Assembly: GCA_964036295.1 (NCBI GenBank)
Contig: OZ038462.1
Span: forward strand, 2,735,501-2,799,500
DNA length: 64,000 nucleotides
DNA from: Plumapathes pennacea
Taxonomy: Eukaryota; Cnidaria; Anthozoa; Antipatharia; Myriopathidae
Reading direction: 5' to 3'
This document shows, in pieces, positions 27,803 to 59,690 of the stretch. Numbering within the stretch: the stretch's first letter is position 1; every line of letters starts with the position of its first letter. The notes beneath the pieces are model-generated. The model saw nothing but the letters and a program-made list of their open reading frames with translations. It had not been told where the DNA came from and did not search any database. Both the position numbers and the translations under genes were made by a program.

Positions 27803-28071
27803 ATGTCAGGTAGGTGTGTAGTGCAGGGCTGCGACAGCAAGTCCAACCCGAAAGAGGGCATTTCCCTTCACATTTCGCTCAATAATAAAGCGCTGTGCGC
27901 GATGTGGAAGAACGGTTTGTGCTACTTCATCGCAAGAACTTCAATCCTGGTGATCGCTTCTCTGTCTGCTCGAAGCATTTCGAAGAGAGCTGTTTCTCAA
28001 GGCTCCACCAAGAAGGTTTTCTTCAGCAGACTGATTCCAGGATCAGACCCCACAATTTGGAGAGCAACTAA
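27803..28071 (+). pseudogene. THAP-domain fragment with a frameshift
   Basis: The frame opens MSGRCVVQGCDSKSNPKEGI, the first Cys pair of a C2CH THAP zinc finger. In another frame it continues FNPGDRFSVCSKHFEESCF, the closing Cys-His pair, then ends RPHNLESN and a stop at 28069-28071. The frame changes near 27885-27895, where the invariant Trp of THAP domains is also not evident. THAP domains bind DNA and are found in host genes and P-element-like transposases. No transposase follows, so a decayed fragment is most likely; a missed small intron is the alternative. Confidence 0.6.
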
Positions 28072-28780
28072 AGATCGAGGCGAAAGTGCAAGAGATCGTC
28101 GTAAGTCTTGAGGAGGGAAAAAATTCGGAATTTTTTCGAAGTTTGAGCAGTTTAAGAGTCCCACAATTTACAAACTGTCATTAAACTGCTTTCTTAGATG
28201 TTTCGTTTAGCAGAAATTGCAAGAACTGAACTTTCGCTTTCATCGCAAATCGCACACTGTGGCGGCGTGACAACTTGTTATGAGTCCATTCGAGTAAATT
28301 TGAAGCACTTTTCGGACTGATGCAACCAAAAGCCATACTATTACAAGTTAATGAATACAAAAAGGCGGTGTTTCAGTGTAATTGTTGTAGTTTAATAATA
28401 AAACGGTCAAGTTAGCTAGACGGCGGCTTTTCATATAGACACAACGCCGGGCGGAATCACACAACAGTCCGCATGCCAAATCAACGCAAATGTATTTATT
28501 CAAAATAGTGGCACTGTGTACGATCTATGAATTTCACTTTACATTAAAACCCATGCATTTACTAGATCCTTCAATAATTTGATAGAATCGAAAAGTTCAT
28601 GTTGATTTTGCAGTAGTTTGTGTGCTACTGACTTCGTAAATTTTCCGAGTTCTGAAGTGTGTTAAAATTAATAATGGTCTTACACGTTCCAAAATTTACT
28701 TCTCGGCTGAATCTTTTCTTGAATTCGGCTTCTTCTTCGACCGTGACTTTCTCGACGTACGCCGCTAGTTCTTCGATGTT

Positions 28781-31700
28781 TTAATAGAATTGAAATGTTT
28801 TGATAGAATCGAAAAGTTCATGTTGATTTTGCAGTAATTTGAGCGCTTTTCGAAATTCTTCGAAATAACCACGTCTGCTGTAACCACTTAAAAGAACAGC
28901 ACTTACTATGGTCTGATAGCTGTCTGAAATAATGGTTGACAATGCAGGGGCTGTATCCATTGAGAAAGCCCATTTATCGTCTTCAAAACCTGGAAATATA
29001 CGTAGTATTAGAGGGATTTAATTGTCATATGAGTTTATACAGTATGTCAATTACTGACTTTGTTAGGTATGATTATACACCTTTGAACTAAGACGTCAGA
29101 ATTTTTACATAGATATGAACATAGTTACATGTATAAATACATACGTTGCAAAGTTACGATAACAAAAATGTTCAAGGTTACGATCACGTGTCTGAGTCGA
29201 TAATTTTCTAATTTGGTACGACTAGTACGAAAACGACAAAATGACACGACATGTAGCCTGAAATGTCAGTCGTCTCCACGGCCCTCATGTTGAGGGTCGA
29301 GGAGACGACAGACATTTGAGGCCATTTCAGGTTGTTGCCAGGAGTTCGAGAAATTACGACAGTCGTTCTTTCTATAGTACGAGACGATAAAAGCAATAGA
29401 ACTTCGGCAAACCGAACAAATTGTGCAACCTAAGAATAATAGGTAAAGTTACAAAGACATAAGGAATATGAAAACACTTTTTTCCTAGTTCCTCGCGTTG
29501 CCTTCGCCGTCGTCGTCCCAAATATAGAATCATGCACGCCAAGTTAATATGAGGAGGTAATAAGATGCATTTACCTGATGTTCCAGTTGTATACGGCACC
29601 TCCCCGCTGTCCGTTGTTCCTCTACACAGGAGCATGTAGTGGGCCCCAGTGTATCCCAAGTTGATCTCCTTATGGGGGGGTTGTTGGGAGGCGGGCACCA
29701 CCTTCGTGAGCCTCTGCAAAAGTAGGTGTAGTGATATTGCAAATTGTGTTCAGACTAAATAACAGAGTTGTAAACAGGACAGAACTACAAACTTACGCCT
29801 TCCCAACTGAAGATGTTGATTTGGATGGAAAAAACCAAGGCAGCGGATACAATGACGGGGTGAGTAACCATCTCGCCCCGCAAAGCCTCCACCACCTCTC
29901 TCCAGGTTTGGGGCCGCTTGCGTCCGTGATTTGGAAAATCATCATCCGCCAAAAAGCTTTGCAGGTCAATTTCGACATCATTGCCTTCCTAAAAATATAT
30001 ATAACTAAATAATAGGTCGAGTCCTGTTGTGTTTAGTTGAATTTGGGTTTTGGTTCAAACACGGTAGTGTCCTGGGATATAGTCATTATCAGACTTCTCT
30101 TTCTCTCTTTGCCAAAGATCGGGTCAAACAAACCAAGAAACCATACAAAAACTTTCATCACAAAAATATCTTCTCCTTCTTCTTCCAGTTGTCCACCAAC
30201 CTTAATACTGAGGACTAAAACGTTCCTCCCAACATAACATAACATAAAATAACATAACCAATTGAAAACACCCGCCCCACCAAAGGCATCTCATACAAAG
30301 AAAGTAATTATCATAAATAGCATGAGACAGAATTACTGAAACCGAACGGGCTGTTTTGTATGACAAAGTACGTCGAACTATTGTTTTATGCCTTCGTACT
30401 ATCTTTAGTCCTTTCTTTTGACGTTCTCAATCCTTACCTCGTTCCTGATTTTAACAGTGTGATGTTCTAACAAGTAGTTCTCAACTTTGTTGATCACATC
30501 ATCCTCAGGGAGCTTCAATGACTCCCCCAAACAGCGGTAAAAACAGCGGTTCCCACTTCCAGGAGGATCATATTCAACCTTGAACCCATGCTCACTGCAG
30601 GATGCCAACAAAAGCTGTACTCGTTCATCGGTTATCTACAAAGATAAAGGATTCCGTTGCTTTTCCTTTCTTAAAAAAAAAACTGTTGCACAGACAGACA
30701 GACAGCAAGAGACAGCCAGACAAAGCCAGACAGATATAACAATGCCAAAATACATTTACCCCGCACCATACGATTTCTGCCCACTACGTACCACCGGTTC
30801 CCGAAAGTCGTACACTAGCTTAAGCTCTTTTTCCAGCAAATGAAACAAAACCCCAAGCATTATATTCTACGTCTTTAATGATTTTGAAACACTGAAACAA
30901 TGACACACAGAGATTGTGAAAATTCCAATTTCCATTTTATTGAACGTCGGTTTTGTCAAAACTTGAATCCTGTAAACGTCAAACGGTGAAATTTGCCACG
31001 TGCGGTAATTGTTCGATTTCCATCGACTTTATTTTGCTTATCCTTTTTGAAGAAGTATAGCCAAACACGTTACTGTGGCTTCAGATCACTCCCATTTTCC
31101 GAAACACTCGATAAACCGGAGAACTTTGCCACTTTACACTACAATCGCTATGTGATGCACAACACGAGTCAACGCCAGCCTCGCTATCGTGTTTTGTGCG
31201 GTTACCAATCCAATAATGAGCCAGGAACTGTTAAAACAAGTGTATTGTATTGATTACTTTACACGCATAATTTATAAACATGTGTGTACAATACAATATT
31301 GTGACATGCTCATAAAAGACCTTCTAAGTTTTAGGAGACTGAATTCTCTTTCCTTTCAGTGCTATGCTAAATTATCTTGCCTGTGCTGTTTGTTTATGGC
31401 GGCTCTTTAACAAATTGTTCAAATGAATCATTCACATGCTAAATAATATATTATACTTATATTTACACATATAAGATAGATAGATATCGAGACATAGATG
31501 ACCTTTATTTGTATTTACACACTTATAAAAGCATACAGCTTGTGGGGACATGCATTACTAATCTTTTTTTTTTTCAGATGACAACATCAAGAGTGCAGTC
31601 AAGAGCTATCAGCATAAAATTTAAATAGTCACTAGTATTATAGTTCAACATACACCTCTGGGCACATACCTGACAGGGTTCATGTGCTCCAAGCAACATC

Positions 31701-34700
31701 ACCTGCCTCTTAACAGTTGGTGGCAACTCAGGCTGTGGGTGAACAAATGTAAGGCACACTGGTAAGAGGAAATATGTCTACATTGTTAATTTCTACCATT
31801 TAACTTTAATAGTTTAATGAGTTACAATAACGAGTTACAATAAATAAGTTACAATATGTGGAAAAACAATAAGTTGCAATATAATGAGTCCTTAAGAGCA
31901 ACTATGGGAAGAGTGCTATATATTTATAATTTACTGTCCTTATAGCTATTGTAGGTGCTTAATATGTGTTTGATATAGAAGGAAAAAAAGGGTTTAAAAG
32001 ATGGGGTATATTTTTATGTTGCAGTTGGCAGAAACTCATTTTCATGTATTTGCTAGACTTTGCATACTAAATAACTACTTTAGTTCAACATTTGTCATTT
32101 GAAATTGCAGTCTTCAACTGGTCTTCCATGTGGTATTGAAAATTTTAAAGCTTCTAAATTTATGTAAATAAAGTACTGCCATTATGATCCAGGGGGGGGG
32201 GGGGTACTTCTCAAAAGTTTGGGTACTTAAGTGTGCTGCACAGGACTGGAAAACCTTACCCCATTTTAGACCAAAAATTGTGATTTTCAACCCTACTTCA
32301 GACTAAAATCTGCAATTTTCTACCCTATTTCAGACTAAAATTTGCAATTTTCTATCCCATTTTCAACCACAATGTTCAATTTGTTTAACCTTTTTCAGAC
32401 CAAAATGTGCAATTTTTGACCCTATTTCAGACCAAATATCACAATCTCCTACCCTATTCCAAACCAAAGGCTCAAAATTGTACCTTTCAGATTTAAAATG
32501 CTCCAATTGCTTTCATGTTCTTGCAAACCCCCACATGCTTTCCAGCTAGCAGCCATGGCTCTCCATTACCATACAGTAGGCAATTAAGCGCACTAACTGA
32601 GAATATTACATTTTAGAAGTATCACTCACCCCCTGAGTGTCTGCAACTGGAAGTGGACAAACAGATGTGATACCCTAGTAGATCAAATTAAAAAAAATTA
32701 GTTGCATTACTTACAGTACTTAAACAAACAATGATTAGTGGAAGCAGAGAACACAGGACTGCAGTAGTTCTACTGGGCATCTAACTCCTAATGCATGACC
32801 TTTTCCAATTCCCTCCCTTTTCTCTCCCTAACAGTCCATGTAGCTTGGGGAGTCACTATAGGACAAGAGTATTAATTATTACAGTCGGTAGGCCCAATGG
32901 TAGCACTTATAAGCTTTTATAAAAATGTACTGGTTGTTACAGTCAGTGTTACAGTGTCACAGCACAAGAGGAATCTATTTTGTAACCAGTACAACAAAGC
33001 ATGACTTAGGGCACATACTCGATCTTAAGTTCTGTAAGTTCACTGAATTTGATGTACCTTGTCGTTAACAAAAACTCGTATTTGAACATCCTCTGTGTCA
33101 ATCCATTTACCATGCTCATCACATATTTGAAGAGATATTACACTCTCTGGCAACAATTTCTTGCCAAAGGAGTCTTTCAATATCTTATTCATATCGAGGG
33201 GGACCTTCTGATTATCAAAGTGCACAAACAATTTAGCTCCACCTCCACCTCCTTGGAACTGAAAAAGGGAAAAGTTACAATATCTAAATAAAAGCAAAAA
33301 ATTAAATAAAAATAAGAAACAGCAAGAAAACTAATACTAATTAGCTCTATTTTCTAGAGTTAGCCTTGGTAAACTTTTTCAAAAGTTTTAGTAAATATCA
33401 GAATTCTAACAAGGTAAAAATAGGTAAGAAAAAAATTGGGGGTTACAAAGTTGGAATTTCCGCTATTTGGCAATTTTTGTTTTTTGACAAAATATAAAGT
33501 TCCAACTTGTAGAATTTTTAGAAAATTCTACTACGAAGAGGCAGGGGTTGTAACTTTGTTTGTGCGCAGTTTAAAAAATATTCACTGAACAGAACCGGAG
33601 AAAATCAACCTGAAAGTTGTACTTTTTTGCCAAATGCTGACTTCAACAATCGCATTTTACCTGTGGAGCATGCGCACAACTGCATGTAAACACAAGGAGA
33701 AAGAAGCAATCGCACGCCAGCAAGTACAGCAAGTTTTCTGAGTGCGAAACTAAGGAAATAACACCATGCAATTCCTGAAGTTGTCTTGAGAAGCTTGTAC
33801 TAGATATGTCAGCTACAAATTATTCTGTGCGAACTAATCTTGGCGAAGCCTCAAACGATGTGAGGGTGATAGTGGTTCAACAACTTGATCCTTTTCAAAG
33901 TCGTAAAGGCATGAAGACCGTTCGAAAGTCTTCAGTTCAAGCCGTCGTATGCCAGTCCACTAGCTCCCAACAAGTTTGTCGGTAGTTGTGTCCCATCAAG
34001 TTCATTCATACTTATTCAGTACAGTTCGTGAATATTTAGTTTTGCAACTGCTCACTTGAAATAATATGCCACAGACCGACACGAGATCGAAATCTGCAGC
34101 TTAGTAGGATTTGCAAGAGCTTCATAACAATACCAATATAGTCTGTCTAAGTTTGCTTACTCCCAAGAATTGATGTCAGTGTTGTGACTAGGCCGAATGT
34201 AATGGTTTGTCCATTGCAATGATTGCCAAAATGACCATCTGAGCCGAGTTTGTCACGGCTGTTCATTTCAAAGTCATACGGAATAAAATCTGAATTGTAG
34301 AACTTGTTCGTCGTGACTGTTCCTTGTTTAGATATTAACCTGACAGAATGTGCAGAAACAATACTTTCAAACTAATTCAGTAGAATTATATACATTCGAA
34401 GGTAAAGTGATAAAGATTGGCGATCAAGTAAAGCCGGCGTGTACTGAGTTTGATTGAAAGGCTTCGCAAGCTATGTTTACCCTTTGTGGCACGAAGAACC
34501 GTGCACGCATTGTTAACTGTTTTTATTTCGAGTTTTTAGAATTTTCTGTTAAATTCTGATTTCCTCCAGCGAATTACGAAAGTAAGGTTTTTGTTTCATT
34601 GTGATTTTTGCTGCCCACGCAAAATTTCGTCTGAAAACCCTATGGAGCCACCTTAAAAGCCTGCTTTACAGTAAATGTGTATCTTTGCATCAGAGCCAAC

Positions 34701-35076
34701 TTTAGATAACTATTAAACGGTGTTGCTGGCGAGTACACATAGTGTGATCGCAAATCGTTTCATTAATGTGAACCAATCACCGTTTTGGTTTTGCTAGTAC
34801 TTTTAGGCCCCGCTCACACAAGAGCGAATTTACCCGGATTCGAGGCAGTTTCTGGATTCGTGAAAGCGTTGACACTATAGCTTTTGTAAATCCGGTGTCA
34901 TTTTTAGTGAATACGGAGAGAAATCGAAAGTGGGAACTTTGTAACCGAAATAGTTTTCAAGTGTAAAACAGGGCTTAAATTGGTCCAGCGTGTTTTTGCT
35001 CGCTTCATTGCAAACTTATGCATCGATCAATTCCAACTGTTACCACCCCATTACGTACCTGCTCATTTCCCGCCAT
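28781..35076 (-). CDS. Gene D: OTU-like cysteine protease with a novel N-terminal domain
   Basis: Exons: 35076-35059, 33258-33058, 32674-32630, 31732-31670, 30635-30438, 29988-29797, 29713-29575, 28989-28781. Phases agree, giving 1065 nt and 354 residues. The start is a short exon, MAGNEQ, immediately before gtacgt. It is chosen because it is the only start nearby that joins exon 2 in phase. Exon 2 (about residues 7-73) encodes a Gly-rich lead and a compact domain (KLFVHFDNQKVPL ... VISLQICDEHGKW ... VQIRVFVND) that I do not recognise and that recurs at 55743-55928. Residues from about 110 form an OTU-like fold: SGNRCFYRCLGESL with candidate nucleophile Cys140, RPQTWREVVEAL, and YTGAHYMLLC with candidate catalytic His264. 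OTU enzymes usually cleave ubiquitin chains. The motif here reads SGNRC rather than DGNC, so activity is likely but unproven. Exons 3 and 4 are short and in phase, so they could be skipped. Confidence 0.8.
32225..32475. repeat. Degenerate minisatellite in a gene D intron
   Basis: Units like accctatttcagaccaaaat + ntgcaatttt, period about 27-30 bp, preceded by a G run. Related to 25618-25850. Confidence 0.8.
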
Positions 35077-36820
35077 TTTTTGAAGGAAGAGTAACTTTCC
35101 AAGTAGCTTCTTCTTGTTAGTCCACACGAATGCGTTTGTTTTACGTTTCGATTTTCATTGAAAAAGAACAAGTTTCCCGCAGGCAGACGCTCGAACAACC
35201 CCTCGTGCTTGGTAACCAACTCTATCTTAGATGGCCGCGCGAAGTCTGGTTGAGAGTTTGGCCAACCTCTTCCCCAGACTCCGCGTGGCTGTAGAAGAGA
35301 GAGAGCCTGTTCACAGGCGAATGATGCAAGAGCTGAGGTCGAGGTAATCTCGTATCCAGAATCTTCCGCTGTCTTACGGCGCATCGACGCAAAAAGAAAG
35401 CGAACCCAGTTCCTTGATGCCATTTGGCGATACGGAAATAACTCGTGACATTGATGTTCGGGCTAGTTCAAATGCCCAGTAATTCGCCCTATGAGCAATT
35501 TTACTAAATTAAAAGAACAAGCTTACAACAAAAGCCGAAATGTATAGCCTTTAATTTGTATAAAGGGTGTCTGACAAAATATATATTTACTGGAGCATAA
35601 GTAAAATAGATGGAATTACGAGGTGCAGTTATGTGAATGCCAGGTGAACGCCCGCTTTGAAGATTGTGCTGCTGACGTTTCGAGCCTTAGAAGCCCTTAC
35701 TTTGTCAGAGCTTGCAACGTACGCTATTACATTTTAATGGAGTTCAGGACGTACACTCCGTTAACGTTGATACATTCTGCATCTTGCCGCAAAATGTAGT
35801 TCTAACATGGACTATGTATTCCAGGCCATTGGATACTGCATTAAAAGCTAACACAAACATATTGTGAATGAAATGATGAAATACCGAAAAGCTTTCAGAT
35901 CAACAAGACAGCAGATAATGTTTTTGTTTACGCATTTCCTTCGGTCTTTTGCGTTTAAACACAGACAAAAATACAACACCAGGAAATGGCTTCGATCCGA
36001 GGACTTATTTCTCTTGCAGTCACCTATTTATATTCTATTCTATTCTATTAGCTTCGCCAACAAACATATAACACTGATAATGACAAGGATACTATTAGGA
36101 ACGCGTTGGATGACCGCAACACCCTGTGCAATTGATTAGAAGACTCAACTCCACGACTCAAAACTCCATATTGTGAATAATTGTAATAATAATACTAATA
36201 GAAAGAAATGTACACTTCGCGTCATAATTATTGGTAACGTCACCACATAACTAGCTTCGCTACGTTTTACAGCTGCAAAGCAAAAAGAAAAAGTGTTAGA
36301 TTCGGCGTCCGGAGATAAGCGCGTGTCGTGCACGCGTGCGTTCGTTTCGCTCGCGAGTGCTGTGGGTTCATGCGTGTAGGCATAAAGGTGGTGTTACAAG
36401 TATCACATAAAATACAAAGAGGTTATTACACGGGAAGGAGTGCAATACGGCGGAGTATTTTTACGAGTTGGTTTTATTTTTTCGAGCCTGCTTCAGGCGA
36501 GAAAAACTAAAACTGACGAGTAAAAATACAGCCGTATTGCACGACTTTTCGTGTAATAAATTGTTTATTACACGACAAACGAAGCAGGGCAAACATTCTC
36601 GCCGCTCGCAAAATGGAACAAAAAAAATGACGCGTTCGTAAACTTTGCTTGCGGAAACTGATCACGTAAGCTAATAAACCAGTTGATCTGGTTCCTGACG
36701 AGGCAATACGCTCCCATCTTTGCACTCGTTTTGGCCCGTATTTGCACTCGAAAATGTGAAGTCGTGTAATAATAACAAGTATCACATAGTAGACTCACAA
36801 GTATTACATAGAATACTCAC
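35077..36820. other. Gene D upstream region and start of a duplicated unit
   Basis: 35456 onward matches 53745 onward and, more weakly, 56520 onward (gttcgggctagttcaaatgc in the first copy). A tgacgtttcgagcctta motif at about 35678 recurs near 56690 and 61760, so it is part of a common element. A palindromic element is at 36422-36771. No gene is supported here apart from the gene D start. Confidence 0.6.
36422..36771. mobile_element. Nested palindromic MITE inserted in the B copy
   Basis: The ends ttattacacg and cgtgtaataa recur internally. ggagtgcaatacggc (left) pairs with gccgtattgcacgac (right), and a second arm pair follows at about 36562-36771. The equivalent position in the C copy, near 57420, lacks this sequence, so the insertion came after the duplication. 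Confidence 0.75.
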
Positions 36821-39605
36821 AAATATCACATTGGCTGACCGCACGATGCCGTTCTCCTGCTCAATTTTTTCCATCATCTCAAGGTCCGGTGTTGTAAGTG
36901 TTCTGTAACGCTGAAAAACGTATTTTTTGTTTTCAAATTCAACACGCTGTGTATATAACTATGTTAATGGTAAATGTATAGCGAAAAGTAACTGTACGGC
37001 CGAGCATTTTAAGTTTCTATCTGGTGGGGCCATGTGGTGGTATATCTGTAGAAAGCCGGGAAAAAAAAAAAAAAAAAAAAAACGTAGGAATTGCCTCCCT
37101 CCCTTACTACGTAAGTCAAATGGTTCCGATTTTCTGATCACCTGGTAGGATGCGACAGGTTCAATTATGATTACCTCCATAAAGGTTCCTGGAGTCTTCC
37201 ACATCTCGTACAGTGCTACTCCTGGTATCACGAGCATTGAGGAGAGCGCCATCACCCAGCCTATGAACTCACCCCACCCCGGGTAAGCAATTTTGTTGTA
37301 GGACACACCGGCCCACTGGAACACGCTGGCCAGAACAATAATCTACGAATCAAAAGCAAATGGGCCAAACTTTTAAAAGCAATGAGAACTTCAACCGATT
37401 AAGGGAAATGTCCCTTTTGTTGAGTTTGCCAGGAGACAAGGGCCTCCTGTAGTAACCTTGAAAGGGTCGTGTGGACGATGATGGTGACGATGACGATGGT
37501 GATGATGATGATAGTGATAATGGTTATGGTGACGATGATGATGGTGACGATGATGATCGTGACGATGACGATGGTGACGATAACGATGACGATGACGATG
37601 TTGATGAAGACAATGATGATGCGGATGATAATGATGATAGTGACGACGACGATGATGATGGTGACAATGATAATGGTGATATGATGATGGTGACGTCTAA
37701 GTTTATGATTATGGTAATGGTACTAGTAAGGACGACGATCACCCATGATGATAATTATAATGAAGACAAAGATAATGATGATAACAATGATAACAATGAT
37801 AAGGTGATGATAATAGTTATAACGACTAGATAATAATGACGATAGCGATTTAATGCAGGAGAATAATTGATACCCGAGAGGCAGGAATGATATTTAGAAA
37901 AAGGTTAAACTCACGATTGTTACGACAGGAGTGATATATTTCCAACAGATGCGAAACCAGCGGTTGGGTTTTTTGCCTGTCATGGCCTCGACGTCCCTAC
38001 TGAAGTTATCCACGCCTGGGGAATAAAAACAGGAGCGTACAATGATTAAATAACGATTTGTATGCACGTAAAGATAAAAACGATATGATGAAAAAGAAAA
38101 AAAAAAAGAAAAAAAAGGGGGGGGGGGGGATTTCGTAAACACTCACCATATATCCAACTCACTGTGATCACCTCACACAAAACAAGGAACAGAAGGGAGA
38201 TTCCGGCCGTCTGGTAATCCATCAAGTTAAACACCCACATACCACCCTACAAAGAAACACAGAATTATGCGAGTGATGTAATGTATAAAAGTAATATTCT
38301 GATGCCTGCAGGTGAGGCAACAACATGGAAAATGCCGTTTTGGAAACGACAGAAACTTCGTGCAACGCTCGTAAAATCTTCGAACTTAGCCAAGAAACTC
38401 AAAATTAAGAGACGTTACTCATGTATGAGTTACTTCCAAACGTTTCTAAACATAGCTTGCACACGATGTGAAATTTTACCTCGAGTCATAGACTGAGTTA
38501 GATAGTAATGGCGAAGAACGCTGACCAACGGAAGTGACGTCAGTACCGCGCCCAGAGTGTTAATGTGATCCCGGGTGCAAGTAGAGTTTTAACAGACTTG
38601 TTGGCAACTGACGTTTCGACCACTCGACTGACGTTTCGACGACTCGACTGAGTGTTAGTCGTATTTGGAGAATATTAGCTAAAATGGCATTGACAAAGAT
38701 TAAAAGGTTGATACGGAGACGGAGAAGATCGTTACCTGCATTACACACGGAATTCCAAGAATCAACATGCTCACGCAAAGACCGACCACGAACAGCGGTT
38801 TGCGCCATTTTCCTTTGAAAACTGGAAACTCGTCTGTGAAAGCTGTAATAACGGCTTCGATCTGCGCAAACTGCGGAGTTTAAGCAAACAGAAGACGTTA
38901 CACCAAATGGCAGTAAGAAACCAAATGACACTACAAGAAATCCCAGAAAAACTCCTGCAGCGGTGGGGTGGGGAGCAATGGGGATTGATGGGGGAGAGGG
39001 AGGGGTGAGGAAAGGCTGAAGGTCTTGAACACTTAAGCCCACCAAAACATAAAGCGTAAGTTAACATAGTTTCTGTCACACGTGACCAAATCACCTGACT
39101 GTCCAGTCCCAGTGTAATTAACATGAAGAAAAACAAGAAATTAAGAGATGTCATTCATGTGTGAGTTACTTCAAAACATTTTCTACAACATAACTTGCGC
39201 ACAACGGGGCTTGCACACGATGTGAAATTTTACCTCGAGTTATAGACTGACTTAGATAGTAATGGTGACGAACGCTGACCAACGGAAGTGACGTCGGTGC
39301 TGCGCCCAGAGTATTAATGGTCATCTTGGTGAAAGTAGAGTTCAAAGAGACTTGCTGGCAACTAACGTTTCGACCATTCGACTGAGTGTTAGTCGTATTT
39401 GGAGAATATTAGCTAAAATGGCCTTGAAAAGGAGTAAAAGGTTGATACGGAGACGGAGAACGATCGTTACCTGCATTACACACGGAATTCCAAAAATCAA
39501 CATGCTCACGCAAAGACCGACCACTAACAGCGGTTTTCGCCACTTTCCTTTGAAGACTGGAAACTCGTCTGTGAAAGCTGTAATAACGGCTTCGATCTGC
39601 TCAAA
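36821..39605 (-). pseudogene. Gene B: partial 3' duplicate of the SLC6 gene C
   Basis: The exons are intact but the gene is incomplete: TM9 copy 2 (39605-39471), a truncated TM8 remnant (about 39136-39095), TM9 copy 1 (38870-38736), TM10 (38246-38147), TM11 (38015-37915), TM12 (37342-37175) and a C-terminal exon (36910-36821). Each matches gene C closely, for example [19 protein letters not shown] and [17 protein letters not shown], with canonical splice sites. Exons for TM1-TM7 are absent and TM8 is cut where the sequence jumps into a second copy of the TM9 region. A complete 12-helix transporter cannot be made. It is a recent segmental-duplication product, possibly still transcribed. Confidence 0.8.
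37469..37835. repeat. GATGATGGTGAC-type minisatellite in the B copy
   Basis: About 360 bp of gat/gac/ggt triplets between the TM12 and TM11 exons. The homologous array in gene C is at 58108-58430 and is shorter. Its plus-strand reading as a poly-Asp ORF is not a gene. Confidence 0.9.
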
Positions 39606-45200: not shown

Positions 45201-48200
45201 GAATTTCTACACAAATCGCAGCAGGTGGATCACACAGAACACACACTCTGACTACAATGTATATGTGACAGCAGCAATCTTAAGCTAGATGGATTTATAG
45301 TAAATTACCGAGTCATAAATACAGATTTAGAAAACCTTCTCTGCTTGATTTATCTGGCCTAGTGCCTGTACATGTAGTATTGTGTCTAGTGCTGGGCCAT
45401 GATTACCTGAATGATGGTCTTCTTCTCATCAAGCTCTTCATGCAATGTATGTTCCATTTCTTTGGGAAATCGCTCAACCTCAGCAAACTCAGCTGCGAGA
45501 GCCTGCTGGTCCTTCTCTTGATGCCACAGCTGCTCACACAATGAATACAGCTTCTCTTCAACCTGCAGAGTACAACATACAAAAAAGGATTACCGAACAT
45601 CAGTCCCTATTAAGCCCGCCCTCAGCTTTAAAAGCACAGAGTACAGTAAAACTCTGAAAATTCAAAGTTTATGCAAATACTCCTCGAGACTGGAAGAAAG
45701 TATGGGGACTTGGTCATGGAGCTGACTGAACTACCAATTCTCACTACATTCTTCTTGTGTGGTTGAAACTTTCTGCCATATATGAACCATACAGTAAGCT
45801 CAGCAAAGCCTCTTGAATTCACTCGCTTTTAACAAAATACCGAGCTCATAGATAGATACAAATTCTGTTTGCTTGCTCCAGTTCTTTCACTTGTTGCTTA
45901 GCAACAGCTTCCTTATCCACTAACTGTTTAATCTTGCCAGACATGGCTGCAAGCTGCTCTTGAAGAACTGAAACTATTTTATCATTTTTTTCCACTCAGA
46001 TCCTTCATTTGTTTAAGCTGCTCGATTACCTCATCTTGGCTTGAAATAAGCCTCCTCTGGGCCTCCAGTTTGTCCATAAGTTCTTCAACTGACTTGTTCC
46101 GATCAGTGACAACTTGGTTGGCCTCTTCAAGTCTTTTCTTTAGGTCTTCCAATGTCTGGATTTGCATTGCCAATTGTCTCATGCATTTCTCCTCATTCTT
46201 TCGGCCCTCAATCACCAGCTGTTTCTCTCTTTCTATCAGTTGTTGGATTTGGTTTCCCTTGAGAACCAGCTCATCCTCAAGTGCACTTTTCACTGGGACT
46301 TGCTTTGAAAATATAATGATGAGCAAGACTAAAGAAACAGAAGAGCTAAAAATACATCCCCCTTTTGCAGACAACAGCAGAGCCAAAATCATCCCTCCAC
46401 TGTAGACAACAGCAGGGAAACCTCTGACTCCAACGTTATCAGATGGAAAATAATATAAATACCAGAATATTACACTGACCCATGAACCTGACATCAAGTA
46501 TTTTGACTTAAATTTATTAGTGTTGATTTACTGCCTCCAGCTTCTGACTGGTTTACAAATATACCTCAGAGTTCCCACTAGTTTTGAAAGGTGGGGGTCC
46601 AGCAAATTGAGAGTTATTTTTGTTTTTCAAGGTCCCTGGTGCCTAGAAGGTATTTGACATTAAATGTAACATTATCTAACAAATTTTGTTAGACCTTCTA
46701 TGCCGATACCAAGAGAAACAGTTCAGCATGCAGGGAAAGGTTTTCTTTAATTCAATTGGCATGTTCATCCACCATGTTTTCTGCAACAAATCACCCTTGG
46801 GCAGGTCAGAGGTCAGGGACCAAGATGGCAGGAATTTTTTGGGCTCCCGATACCTTCGATATCTTTGCTATTTAGTTGCCCATCTACCTAGACCATCTAC
46901 CTTTTTTATGTGAAATGGCAGTAACAAGAGAAGTCTTGGAAGAAATCTTAGAAGATAAACTGAACAAGAAATTAGATCCCATCCTAAAGTTAGTTGAATT
47001 CATGAGCGCAAGCTTCGATGAAACTACAAAGATGACAAAGCTTGAACAAGACAACAGTGAAATCTCAAAGGAAAACAAGCAACTGCGGAGCAAGTGCCTT
47101 TGCGTATCCAACAAACTGGAGCTCCAAAAACAAGAAATGAACAACATGGAGCAGTACTCACGGCAAGACTGCCTTGAAATTTGCGGGATTCCACCTATGA
47201 TAAATGAAAACACTAACAAAATCGTCCAATCTATTGCCCCCTGACATTTCTATTAGCCATCGTCTCCCGAGTGAACATGGCAGGAATCAACATGGTAATC
47301 ACAACTCCATCATTCATGACCCAGCTATTATTGTTAAATTTACATGATGCAACATTCAGGATAAGTTCTACAAGGCAAGGAAAACCCCCCATGACAAAAC
47401 CACAAGAGACAATGGTATGCTCAGAACCACTGAGAGAAGAATATATATAGGAGAAAGCCTGACTCAGCATAACAGGAAACTCTTCAATCGCTGCCTTCAA
47501 GCTAAACAGGAATTGAACTACAAATTTATCTGGACTTCAGCAGGCAAAATTCTACTTCGAAGAGATGGATCTAGTCCAGTGAGATGTATCCAACACAAAG
47601 ATGACCTTAAGAAGATCTATGATGCAGCTGCTAGAGATACGTAACACTGCAACTAACTGAAACTGTGATGACATTGCCAACGTCCTTATTGTATGGTTCT
47701 CTTGATAGAGCCCTTACAGTTAATTTTATAAGCAACTAACTAAAAAATGATGTCATTTGACTTAATTAATATGCTACCCCATCTAGATCAGATTTACCCT
47801 CTGCAAACTCCAGCCATGATCTCTCTGGCATAGATCCTGATCTCAATGTGCCTATACAATCAAACTTACTATACCACTCATGATTTCCAAGATAGTAAGG
47901 AAAGTGCAAACTGCACTTCCAGCAATCACTTTTCAGTTCTTCACTCCAATACAAGAAGCATGAATGCCAACTTTGACAACTTTACACAGATGCTAACTGA
48001 ATTGAAGCATACTTTTTCGGTAATTGGACTAACTGAAACAAAATACGAATCTTCACATGATCAAGTAAATAATCATACCATTCCTGGGTATACAATAATT
48101 GTTTCCCAACCCAGTCTATCAAATGCCGGAGGAACGGGTTTCTTTATTTCTGAAAAATTAAGTTCCACCACAAGAATGGACCTATCTAGATCTACACCCA

Positions 48201-51200
48201 ACTATGAACCCTTGTGGATTGAAATTCATTGTGACCTCCACCATAATCTTATTTGTGGAGTTGTTTATGGACACCCAAACAGTGATCTTGAAGCATTTAT
48301 GACCTCTGTAAACCACACTATTGATAAAATAAATAATGAAAACAATTATTGTATAATAATGGGTGACTTTAACATAAATCTTTTAAACATAGACTCTCAC
48401 TCAGCCACTGATGAATTCCTAAATACCTTGGGATCTTATTTTTCAACCCTCACACATTGCAACTAACTCGCATAACCCATCACACAGCCACTTTAATATA
48501 TTGATATTATTGATAGCATTTTCTTCAATTCAATTGTCCATCATACTATAAGTGGTAATATAGTGTATGATCTAACTGACCACCTACCTAATTTTCTAAT
48601 CATAAATAAATTCTCAACTTTACCAAAGAATTTCAAAGTTTTCAGAAGAGATTATCCCCAGTTCAGTGAATCTAGTCTTCTAGAAGATTCTCAGTCTATA
48701 ATTTGGAACCAAGAAATTCCAGATAGTAATAATGCTATGTAATGTCTTACTCAAAATTAACTAAAATTGTAGATAAACATATCCCCCTTAAACAGCTGAG
48801 CAAAAAAGACATCCAACATATTTTAAAACCTTGGATAACTCCAGGCACAAGAGCCTCATTGATAATTATTGTTAAGAACAAAATTTATAAAAAATTCATT
48901 AAAACAAGGTCACTATACTACCAAATATATAGAAATAAATTAAACCACTTAATTAGAATCAGTAAAATCAAATACTATAACAAATATTTTAATTCAAATA
49001 GAACTCACCTGGGCCCGGTTTTTCAAAGCACGATTAGGCTAATCCTGGATTAGATCTAAACTTTCATGTCGTTTATATGCCTGCAAATATGAAGGTTTCG
49101 TCCACAACAACTTCCTTTATGCGTTTTTAAGCTAAAATGAGCTTTTTAATCGATCTTCGAACAAAACTCTGCAGTTTATTGGCAGAGAGGTCGAAAGAAA
49201 GAATTTCGTTAATCCTGGATTAGCTTAATCGGCTTTCGAAAAACTGGGCCTTGAAGAACATATGGAAAGGAATAAAGCAAACCACAAGTCTGAAACCCAT
49301 GGGAAGTAGTTTACAGTACCATCTAAAATACTCCAGGATGACATAGCTGAGCTCACTGATAGCAAATCTATTGCCGATGCATTCAATGCTTATTTCTCTA
49401 ATACAGGTAGCAATTTGGCTGCATCTGTCCCCTCAGTAAATAAGACAGCATTACAATTCATGCTCCCTAATCTACCCAATAGTTTATATCTTCATCCCAC
49501 CAGCCCTGAAGAGATTGAGGAGGAAATTGGTAAGTTGAACCCATCCAAGGCTACTGGCCCTTATAGTATACCTGTACAAATCTTAAAGCTGCTGAAAGGT
49601 CTTGTATCAAAGCCATTGGAAACTACATTTAATGTTTCTCTGTCCACTGGTGATGTCCCTGATTGCTTCAAATTAGCTAGTGTTATTCCTATTTACAAAA
49701 GGGTCTCAACTTAGCCTAAATAATTACCGCCCTATCTTCTTACTATCCATATTCAACAGAGTTCTTGAGAAAATCATGTACTAAAATATTGTACAATAAA
49801 CAATTTGGTTTTCGATCAAATCATTCTACACTGCAGGCAATTTTATCAATCGCTGACAAAACACAGGGAGCCATTGATAGTGGAAATTACTCCTGTGGCA
49901 TCTTTCTTGATTTAAGCAAGGCTTTTGACACAGTGAATCATCATATATTATTGCAAAAACTTGATCATTATGGGATAAGGGGAATAGCAAATGATTGGTT
50001 TAAATCATATTTAGAAAATAGAAAACAATTTGTTTCCTTGGGACACACCATATCAAAAACCAGACACATTTCATGTGGTGTTCCTCAAGGCTCAGTTCTT
50101 GGACCACTACTTTTTCTGCTACATATAAGTGATTTTGACTACTTTTGTATTAAATGTAACAAAGCTAAATATGGTGCTAAATAAACTATTGATTGATTGA
50201 ATAGGGGGATGCCAAGGCAGCTCTTCCTTGCTAAATCATCAATAAATCTCACCTAAATTTGAGCAAGTTCAAAACAGTGATGATTTCTCTACAACAAATC
50301 GCCATGAAATAGCAGGTACAGTAGTCTACACATTAAAAATCGCCACCAAAATTGCGCGAAGAACATCTCGTCAAAACAAAGCTGCGTGGCATGGCCAACT
50401 CAATCGCAGGGATAGCATCAAAGACAAAAATTTAAAAAGCTTTTAGGGCCTCTTCATATGAGCCTGATTACCGAGATTTGGCCCTCCCACTATTTCTCTA
50501 GTAAAAATTCCAATTGTTCATATGACAGGGTGGGCCAGCCCAGATAACCGAGATCTTGGTCTTTGCAAAATGAAAATGTTCCAACTATGTGAGTCTGAAA
50601 TAGGGCCCTGTAAGGGGGGGTGTCCATGTCCCCTGTCTGAATTTCAAAACTAGGTATGTCACAATTTTGAAATGTCTCCGAGTCGTTCATTAGAATTTCG
50701 ACCAGTGACTACATTCACGTTAAAATCTGAATTGTCCTTCCAACATTTGTTAGGAACTCCTGAAAAAAATCAACCCTGAAGGTAAAGGTTTATCACACCC
50801 TGTTAAACACTCTACACTTTTTTAAACCATCCAATCATTTACAGTTGGGGCGGATCTAGCATTTTGTGAGAGAGGGTTTGAGCACCAACACACTAAGGGA
50901 GTCTGGGGGCATGTTCCCCCCAAAATCTTGAAATCTAGATTTGCCGAAATACCATTTCTTGCATTTTGACAACTCTTTTGAACAAAATGTAAACGTTCAA
51001 ACCAACAATTTCAAACCAACAATTTCAAACCGCACTTCTTGTGAAATGCTCTCATACACTGCTGTCAGACTCGAAAACGACATTGATTATCATCCTCCGA
51101 GTGTGCTGCTTAGTGAAAGCGTGGAGTACTGTGTGAACCCACAGAAAAATTGGATAGAGAAATTTGTGAGCGCCAAAGGAGAAAGCTGCCTATGGTGGGA

Positions 51201-57439: not shown

Positions 57440-59690
57440 GAGTATCACATTGGCTGATCGCACGATGCCGTTCTCCTGTTCGATTTTTTCCATCATCTCA
57501 CGATCCGGTGTTGTCAGTGTTCTGTAACGCTGGGAAACGTATTTTCTTTTTTGTAAAAGTTCAACACACTGTGTATAACTGTGTTAAGGTAAACGTAGAA
57601 CGAAAAGAAATTTTATTTATACATGGCCGAGCATTTAAGTTTCCAGCTGGTGGGGCCGTGTGGTGGTATACCTGTAGAAAGCCCCGGGTAATACGTACTC
57701 CCTCCTACAGTACTACATAAGTCAACTGGTTCCGATTTTTTGATCACCTGATAAGCAATGAGAAACAACCAAAGACCATTTCTAGGATGCGACAGGTTCA
57801 ATTATGATTACCTCCATAAAGGTTCCTGGAGTCTTCCACATCTCATACAGTGCTACTCCTGGTATCAAAAGCATGGAAGAGAGCGCCATCACCCAGCCTA
57901 TGAACTCACCCCACCCCGGGTAAGCAATTTTGTTGTAGGACACACCGGCCCACTGGAACACGCTGGCCAGAACAATAATCTACGAATCAAAAGCAAATGG
58001 GCCAAACTTTTAAAAGCAATGAGAACTTCAACCGATTAAGGGAAATGCCCCTTTTGTTGAGTTTGCCAGGAGACAAGGGCCTCCTGTAGTAGCCTTGAAA
58101 GGGCCGTGTGGACGATGATGGTGACGATGACGATGGTGATGGTGATGATGATGATAGTGATAATGGTTATGGTGACGATGATGATGGTGATGGTGACGAT
58201 GACGATGACGATGAAGACGTTGATGATGATGACAATGATGATGCGGATGATAATGATGATGGTGACGATGACAATGGTGATATGATGATGGTGACGATGA
58301 AGATTATGATTATAGTAATGGTACTAGTAAGGACGACGATGGATATGATGACGATTATAATGAAGACGAAGATAATGATAATAACAATGATAACAATGAT
58401 AAGGTGATGATAATAGTTATAACGACTAGATAATAATGAGGCGATAGCGATTTAATGCAGGAGAATAATTGATACCCGAGAGACAGGAATGATATTTAGA
58501 AAAAGGCTAAACTTACGATTGTTACGACAGGAGTGATATATTTCCAACAGATGCGAAACCAGCGGTTGGGTTTTTTGCCTGTCATGGCCTCAACGTCCCT
58601 ACTGAAGTTATCCACGCCTGAGGAATAAAAACAGGAGCGTACAATGATTAAATAACGATTTGTATGCACGTAAAGATAAAAACGATATGATGAAAAAGAA
58701 AAAAAAAAAAAAAAAAGGGGGGGGGTTGGGGGGACTTCGTAACCACTCACCATATATCCAACTCACAGTGATCACCTCACACAAAACAAGGAACAGAAGG
58801 GAGATTCCGGCCGTCTGGTAATCCATCAAGTTAAACACCCACATACCACCCTACAAAGAAACACAGATATGCGAGTAATGTAATGTATAAAAGTAATATT
58901 CTGATGCCTGCAGGTGAGGCAACAACATGGAAAATGCCGTTTTGGAAACGACAGAAACTTCGTGCAACGCTCGTAAAATCTTCGAACTTAGCCAAGAAAC
59001 TCAAAATTAAGAGACGTTACTCATGTATGAGTTACTTCCAAACGTTTCTAAACATAGCTTGCACACGATGTGAAATTTTACCTCGAGTCATAGACTGAGT
59101 TAGATAGTAATGGCGAAGAACGCTGACCAACGGAAGTGACGTCAGTACCGCGCCCAGAGTGTTAATGTGATCCCGGGTGCAAGTAGAGTTTTAACAGACT
59201 TGTTGGCAACTGACGTTTCGACCACTCAACTGAGTGTTAGTCGTATTTGGAGAATATTAGCTAAAATGGCATTTACAAAGATTAAAAGGTTGATACGGAG
59301 ACGGAGAAGATCGTTACCTGCATTACACACGGAATTCCAAGAATCAACATGCTCACGCAAAGACCGACCACGAACAGCGGTTTGCGCCATTTTCCTTTGA
59401 AAACTGGAAACTCGTCTGTGAAAGCTGTAATAACGGCTTCGATCTGCGCAAACTGCGGAGTTTAAGCAGACAGAAGACATTACACCAAAAGGCAATGGCA
59501 CTAAGAAACCAAATGACACTAAGAAATCCCAGAAAAACTCCTGCAGGGGTATGGTGGGAAGCACTGGGGATTGGTGGGGGAGGGGGAGGGGTGAGGAAAG
59601 GCTGAAGGTCTTGAACACTTAAGCCTACCAAAACATAAAGCGTAAGTTAACATAGTTTCTGTCACACGTGACCAAATCACCTGACTGTCC
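56520..59690. repeat. Segmental duplication containing gene C 3' exons (partner 35456-39136)
   Basis: Near-identical over long runs, including intron sequence such as gaaactcaaaattaagagac and gtcgtatttggagaatatta. The copies differ by the MITE at 36422-36771, by array length, and by the extra TM9 tandem copy in B. Confidence 0.9.

Follow-up and report, generated by a model that had tools for sequence, protein, structure and literature searches.

Gene D lies on the reverse strand of a 64,000-nucleotide stretch of contig OZ038462.1 of the antipatharian Plumapathes pennacea (positions 2,735,501 to 2,799,500; here called the window). It is best explained as a host gene for an OTU-type cysteine protease with a 109-residue N-terminal extension, the core of which is a 67-residue exon that would form a beta-grasp-like accessory module. 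We hold this explanation as a whole with a little less than even confidence, and its parts differ in strength. The exon is real, its fusion to the protease is probable from the arrangement of the exons, and a module of beta-grasp type is a possibility raised by structural modelling. The exons of gene D, in window coordinates and in order of transcription, are as follows.

35059..35076, minus strand: exon 1, predicted; 6 codons (MAGNEQ) with a probable start in the context AAAAATGG; donor CAG/GTACGT
33058..33258, minus strand: exon 2; 67 codons; orphan segment present as a single copy in the genome
32630..32674, minus strand: exon 3, predicted; 15 codons (GITSVCPLPVADTQG); phase 0; donor GGG/GTGAGT
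31670..31732, minus strand: exon 4, predicted; 21 codons (PELPPTVKRQVMLLGAHEPCQ), one of them Met; phase 0; donor CAG/GTATGT
30438..30635, minus strand: exon 5, the first OTU-like exon; 66 codons, opening with ATA (ITDER); candidate catalytic Cys in GNRCFYRC
29797..29988, minus strand: exon 6, the second OTU-like exon; 64 codons
29575..29713, minus strand: exon 7, the third OTU-like exon; candidate catalytic His in YTGAHYMLL; ends in phase 1
28784..28989, minus strand: candidate exon 8 (GFEDDKWAF...), beginning after ATTTCCAG and read directly from the sequence; the gene model stops here

Exon 2 and the N-terminal extension

The preliminary description had presented exon 2 as one phase-0 exon, and this is borne out by the open frame, both splice sites and the coding-like codons. 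Read from 33258 to 33058 on the minus strand, the exon gives the stop-free 67-codon translation FQGGGGGAKLFVHFDNQKVPLDMNKILKDSFGKKLLPESVISLQICDEHGKWIDTEDVQIRVFVNDK, of which the four peptide pieces quoted in that description are abridged forms. The acceptor is strong (cttttccctttttcag), the donor (AAG/GTACAT) is graded fair, and both ends are in phase 0. Codon log-odds amount to +14.6 bits in the coding frame, -12.6 and -38.1 in the other two frames and at most +4.0 on the opposite strand, under a model trained on 1,373 codons of the same genome, a small set that includes two of the OTU-like exons of gene D and excludes exon 2. Those two exons, which are thus scored on their own training data, give 19.3 and 20.0. 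Among 19,028 stretches of 201 bases treated as non-exon, 349 are open and none of the 349 reaches the exon 2 value, in a control whose stretches overlap, some of them having also trained the background, and whose sequence takes in a THAP-like frame as well as exons 3 and 4 as predicted. Exon 2 is very likely coding, and a chance open frame was rejected on this count. An origin as a repeat or a piece of a mobile element was rejected as well, the 331-base stretch around exon 2 matching only itself in the genome.

Exon 2 had also been described as a domain of no recognised kind, and profile searches against Pfam, NCBIfam and PHROGs agree in finding no match up to an expectation value (E) of 10, within the filters of HMMER. 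Residues 1-109 of gene D are likewise without a Pfam match, UBX included. The best matches among PDB sequences (E 0.33, 0.22 and 0.67) were set aside as chance. Relatives were sought in the Plumapathes genome, the only eukaryotic one covered, and in viral contigs, prokaryote genome contigs, phages and plasmids. The genome itself holds no relative up to E 10. None of 66 pattern matches in the viral contigs and none of 424 in the prokaryote contigs was confirmed, the phages gave five matches with a best E of 3, and the plasmids gave none at E up to 1. The second OTU-like exon gave 33 pattern matches in the viral contigs, none confirmed, and Rfam at its gathering thresholds has no match anywhere in the window. 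Among the papers listed in literature searches, none describes this fusion of exon 2 to an OTU-like protease in its title or the opening of its abstract.

No stop interrupts exons 1-7, all predicted splice sites have retained their GT or AG, and exons 1 to 6 are all in phase 0. The ATG of exon 1 is the first in the open stretch 35005-35154. The 109 residues that the preliminary description had placed ahead of the OTU exons are matched by exons of 6, 67, 15 and 21 codons, the two short exons 3 and 4 having first been chosen by eye with that length in mind. A later pattern scan of the intron found five candidates in phase 0, and three of these, including exon 4, use one and the same donor. Only two of the five have pyrimidine-rich acceptors; these two are exons 3 and 4, which give 109. 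Exons 1, 2 and 7 have donors that the pattern of the scan would reject, so that candidates may be missed. Queried with 49 residues spanning exons 3 and 4, the genome gave only the two places of these exons themselves.

Two observations concern the ends of the gene. On the plus strand, an open stretch at 35231-35345, starting MAARSLVESLANLFPRLRV and ending at a possible donor, lies about 155 bases from the start of gene D on the opposite strand, which suggests a possible two-way promoter. Downstream of the OTU exons, a near-identical coding-like repeat (KLLQNQHELFDSIK) occurs on the minus strand at 28784-28830 and 28578-28625 and may represent a tandem duplication at the 3' end of gene D. In the Pfam search the peptide of candidate exon 8 had no zinc-finger match.

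The OTU-like exons and their relatives

The assignment of exons 5-7 to the OTU family comes from the alignment of sequence profiles and is modest. The joined exons have no match to PF02338 up to E 10, and the only hits are chance matches to Tail_spike_N (E 0.11 and 0.24) below the cut-off; the joined exons of a paralogue elsewhere in the genome, L011, have no PF02338 match either. The two blocks NRCFYRC (Cys) and HYMLL (His) are common to gene D and L011, which are 51% identical. In gene D these (GNRCFYRC and YTGAHYMLL) are collinear with the Cys and His blocks of OTU domains, the Cys block being one residue longer. When a profile of gene D and L011 was compared with six OTU domains found in the same genome, the alignment ran over 119 columns, one comparison giving E 0.013 and a probability of 3.4%. 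The hhalign score was 21.8 for an alignment that covers 120 columns (E 0.009; a probability of 4.6%) and places the Cys and His-Tyr blocks opposite one another. With columns shuffled, 2 of 300 controls scored as high, and the ten highest-scoring shuffled alignments span at most 47 columns as against 120. A profile search of the PDB with the OTU exons yielded five matches with E from 0.65 to 1.5, all short of significance. Two (E 1.4 and 1.5), chains of 170 and 176 residues named 'RNA-directed RNA polymerase', align at both the Cys and the His block, either block being weak by itself; we take these chains to be viral OTU constructs.

Substitution counts point to constraint on these exons. Over exon 6 and part of exon 5, the proportions of nonsynonymous and synonymous differences (pN and pS) between gene D and L011 are 0.32 and 0.81, the latter saturated, and over 44 codons the corresponding substitution rates (dN and dS) between gene D and a second relative, L012, are 0.24 and 0.74. 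With its introns and these signs of constraint, gene D looks like a host gene, and it most likely encodes, to judge from its sequence, an OTU-type cysteine protease and candidate deubiquitinase.

A search of the genome with the OTU exons found at least four places beyond gene D (L011-L014). At L011 (C1:6495106-6495670) the three matched stretches are stop-free and the intron positions, by eye, are those of gene D. L011 resembles gene D in its OTU exons and in keeping both blocks; it differs in that the first codons of its first OTU exon are missing, in an acceptor that is discussed below and in having no stretch similar to exon 2 in the 4.3 kb read upstream. L012 is a single exon, and L013 and L014 are broken. 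A copy of exon 2 is detectable at none of the four. By similarity, with no tree, L012 is nearer gene D and L013 nearer L011. L011 and L013 have a similar upstream stretch, possibly a noncoding exon. The broken copies of the first OTU exon at L013 (3907-3803, minus strand) and L014 (3419-3321, minus strand) each run straight into a repeat tail common to both (CTGTTCTTTGACTAAAACAATTAGTGCGTTACAACACTCC...), which looks as though a mobile element had taken a piece of the exon with it.

The sequence that directly follows the acceptor AG of the first OTU exon is ATGAGCGAT in L012, ATGACTGAC in L013 and ATAACCGAT in gene D. The first codon is ATG in L012, a fragment, and in the broken L013, and ATA (Ile) in gene D; L014 is broken at this point and L011 lacks the stretch. 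The ATG of L012 and L013 is probably an old start codon. As gene D has ATA at the exon edge and no Met in exon 5, translation of its OTU domain needs an upstream start, for which the ATG of exon 1 is the obvious candidate. Translation would then begin at MAGNEQ. Should the fusion be expressed, gene D and its relatives would offer a before-and-after comparison within one genome, an OTU exon that opens with Met being set against one preceded by new upstream exons, and the gain of an accessory module by a deubiquitinase would become directly testable.

The start codon also bears on a different account, in which exon 2 is part of another transcript or is skipped as a rule, and OTU translation begins elsewhere, at the Met of exon 4 or in an unseen upstream exon. 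The uniform phase would allow it, since exon 1 joined directly to exon 5 would stay in frame, and exon 2 is separated by 1.8 kb from exon 1 and by 2.4 kb from exon 5. We consider it distinctly unlikely: exons 3 and 4, with usable splice sites, bridge the gap in phase 0, and the ATG of exon 1 is in good context. The earlier claim that exon 2 is fused to the OTU-like protease stands in part. Phase and splice sites speak for it, as does the lack of a Met in the first OTU exon; a possible start in exon 4, which would bypass exon 2, speaks against it.

Several observations tell against the preferred explanation of gene D, the Met of exon 4 being one. The remaining three of the five PDB matches are to unrelated proteins, with similar or better E-values. 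The Cys block of gene D reads GNRC in place of the GN-C or GD-C of the aligned OTU domains, and catalytic activity should consequently not be assumed. In L011, the acceptor ahead of the third OTU stretch (about 5110, minus strand) is AA where exon 7 of gene D has AG, so that L011 may be decaying or may use a shifted acceptor.

Fold and possible role of the exon 2 module

The preliminary description saw in exon 2 beta strands alternating around a helix and suggested a small beta-grasp or similar fold. Hydrophobic alternation is present, and a run of glycines stands at the start of the exon. AlphaFold2, given the single sequence, returned strand, strand and helix for the whole exon, with a mean predicted local distance difference test (pLDDT) of 60 and a predicted template modelling score (pTM) of 0.34, and a beta-hairpin and helix without the glycine stretch (mean pLDDT 72, pTM 0.43). 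No longer strands are predicted after the helix. At low confidence, then, the first three elements agree with the description and with a beta-grasp, and the remainder has no confident prediction. Foldseek and VIA-align searches with these low-confidence models stayed at chance level, with no significant fold match. A beta-grasp is compatible with these models and plausible for exon 2.

In one form of the preferred explanation, exon 2 would belong to a catalogued beta-grasp family (PB1, UBX-like, CIDE-N or ubiquitin-like) from which it has diverged strongly, and gene D would have a layout like that of OTUD2. The order strand, strand, helix fits, and the beta-beta-alpha start is a likeness to PB1 domains such as that of TFG, whose structure (9e7c) appears in both Foldseek lists, although only at E 9.9 and 6.9. 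The stretch LQICDEHGKWIDTEDV resembles, in our estimation, the acidic turn (OPCA motif) of PB1 domains. None of these families is matched by exon 2 in Pfam at E 10, whether whole or trimmed and within HMMER's filters, and the structural matches are those expected by chance; we regard membership of a particular catalogued family as possible but doubtful.

Exon 2 could instead be a newly recruited coding exon, taken from 5' untranslated or intron sequence, that has no conserved fold and serves as the N-terminal tail needed once the start was lost. The lack of relatives in the genome and in the collections searched accords with this, as do the glycine run, the poor AlphaFold confidence, the ATG that opens the OTU exon in two relatives and the possible noncoding exon upstream of L011 and L013. 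Its codon score, which no open control stretch attains, and its hydrophobic alternation with a predicted beta-hairpin and helix argue the other way, and we think recruitment unlikely. At the other extreme, exon 2 might be the founder of an uncatalogued small domain, gained in a single lineage of an OTU gene as the OTU domain lost its own start and steering the protease to a new substrate. This would be a traceable case of a deubiquitinase acquiring an N-terminal targeting module; we rate it a long shot. A fast-diverged member of a known beta-grasp family, or a lineage-specific module, is more likely than a new fold.

Under the explanation that we prefer, the 67-residue exon would fold into a small beta-grasp-like accessory module. 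In some OTU enzymes, ubiquitin or partners are kept in place by a small accessory domain. By analogy, the module of gene D might hold a substrate, an adaptor or ubiquitin near the active site, and would in that event aim the protease activity instead of creating it.

Neighbouring features and comparison with known systems

Elsewhere in the window, a plus-strand frame at 27803-28111 begins like a THAP zinc finger (CVVQGCDSKSNPKEGISLH...), with a Pfam THAP match (E 0.07) below the cut-off. Broken open frames at 47834-50184 on the plus strand are presumably from a retrotransposon without long terminal repeats, with endonuclease-like and reverse-transcriptase-like parts. Near-identical exon copies at 38771-39060, 39460-39600 and 59226-59618 on the minus strand form a tandem array that we take to be of the SLC6 transporter family.

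OTU domains occur in Ginger1 and Helitron elements, with several families in Hydra (PMC2836005). The Plumapathes genome is also rich in them, with 151 PF02338 matches, a large share of which lie within open frames 500 to 2,154 residues long (e.g. C7:5423972-5424331 and C2:24677432-24677791), and many of these may be mobile-element cargo. Gene D could thus be a decaying copy, or an OTU gene derived from a mobile element, that has no working product. The breaks and common repeat tail of L013 and L014 and the damaged acceptor of L011 would suit such an origin. The stop-free exons 1-7, the GT and AG kept at every predicted site and the signs of constraint on the OTU exons argue against it, and we consider it very unlikely. 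Gene D has in common with the Ginger1 and Helitron proteases an OTU-like domain; it differs from them in being split by several introns and in an OTU type unlike that of the strong PF02338 matches. Inspection by eye, with no dedicated search, showed neither an integrase nor a helicase next to gene D.

The closest parallel is OTUD2/YOD1 (yeast Otu1), in which a small ubiquitin-fold domain stands ahead of the OTU catalytic domain (PMC3705208 and PMC10038098). The domain is UBX-like and occupies residues 46-128 of OTUD2 (PMC3705208). Gene D differs in that exon 2 has no Pfam UBX match and its OTU exons no match to PF02338. OTUD2 further has a C2H2 zinc finger at its C-terminus, for which the peptide of candidate exon 8 gave no match. 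Removal of the UBX-like domain leaves the specificity of human OTUD2 unchanged (PMC3705208, PMC10038098), and the Toxoplasma enzyme without it loses activity on Lys63 chains (PMC10038098). A small extra domain ahead of an OTU domain is an ordinary layout and already known, so that any claim of novelty for gene D would rest on the module itself being new.
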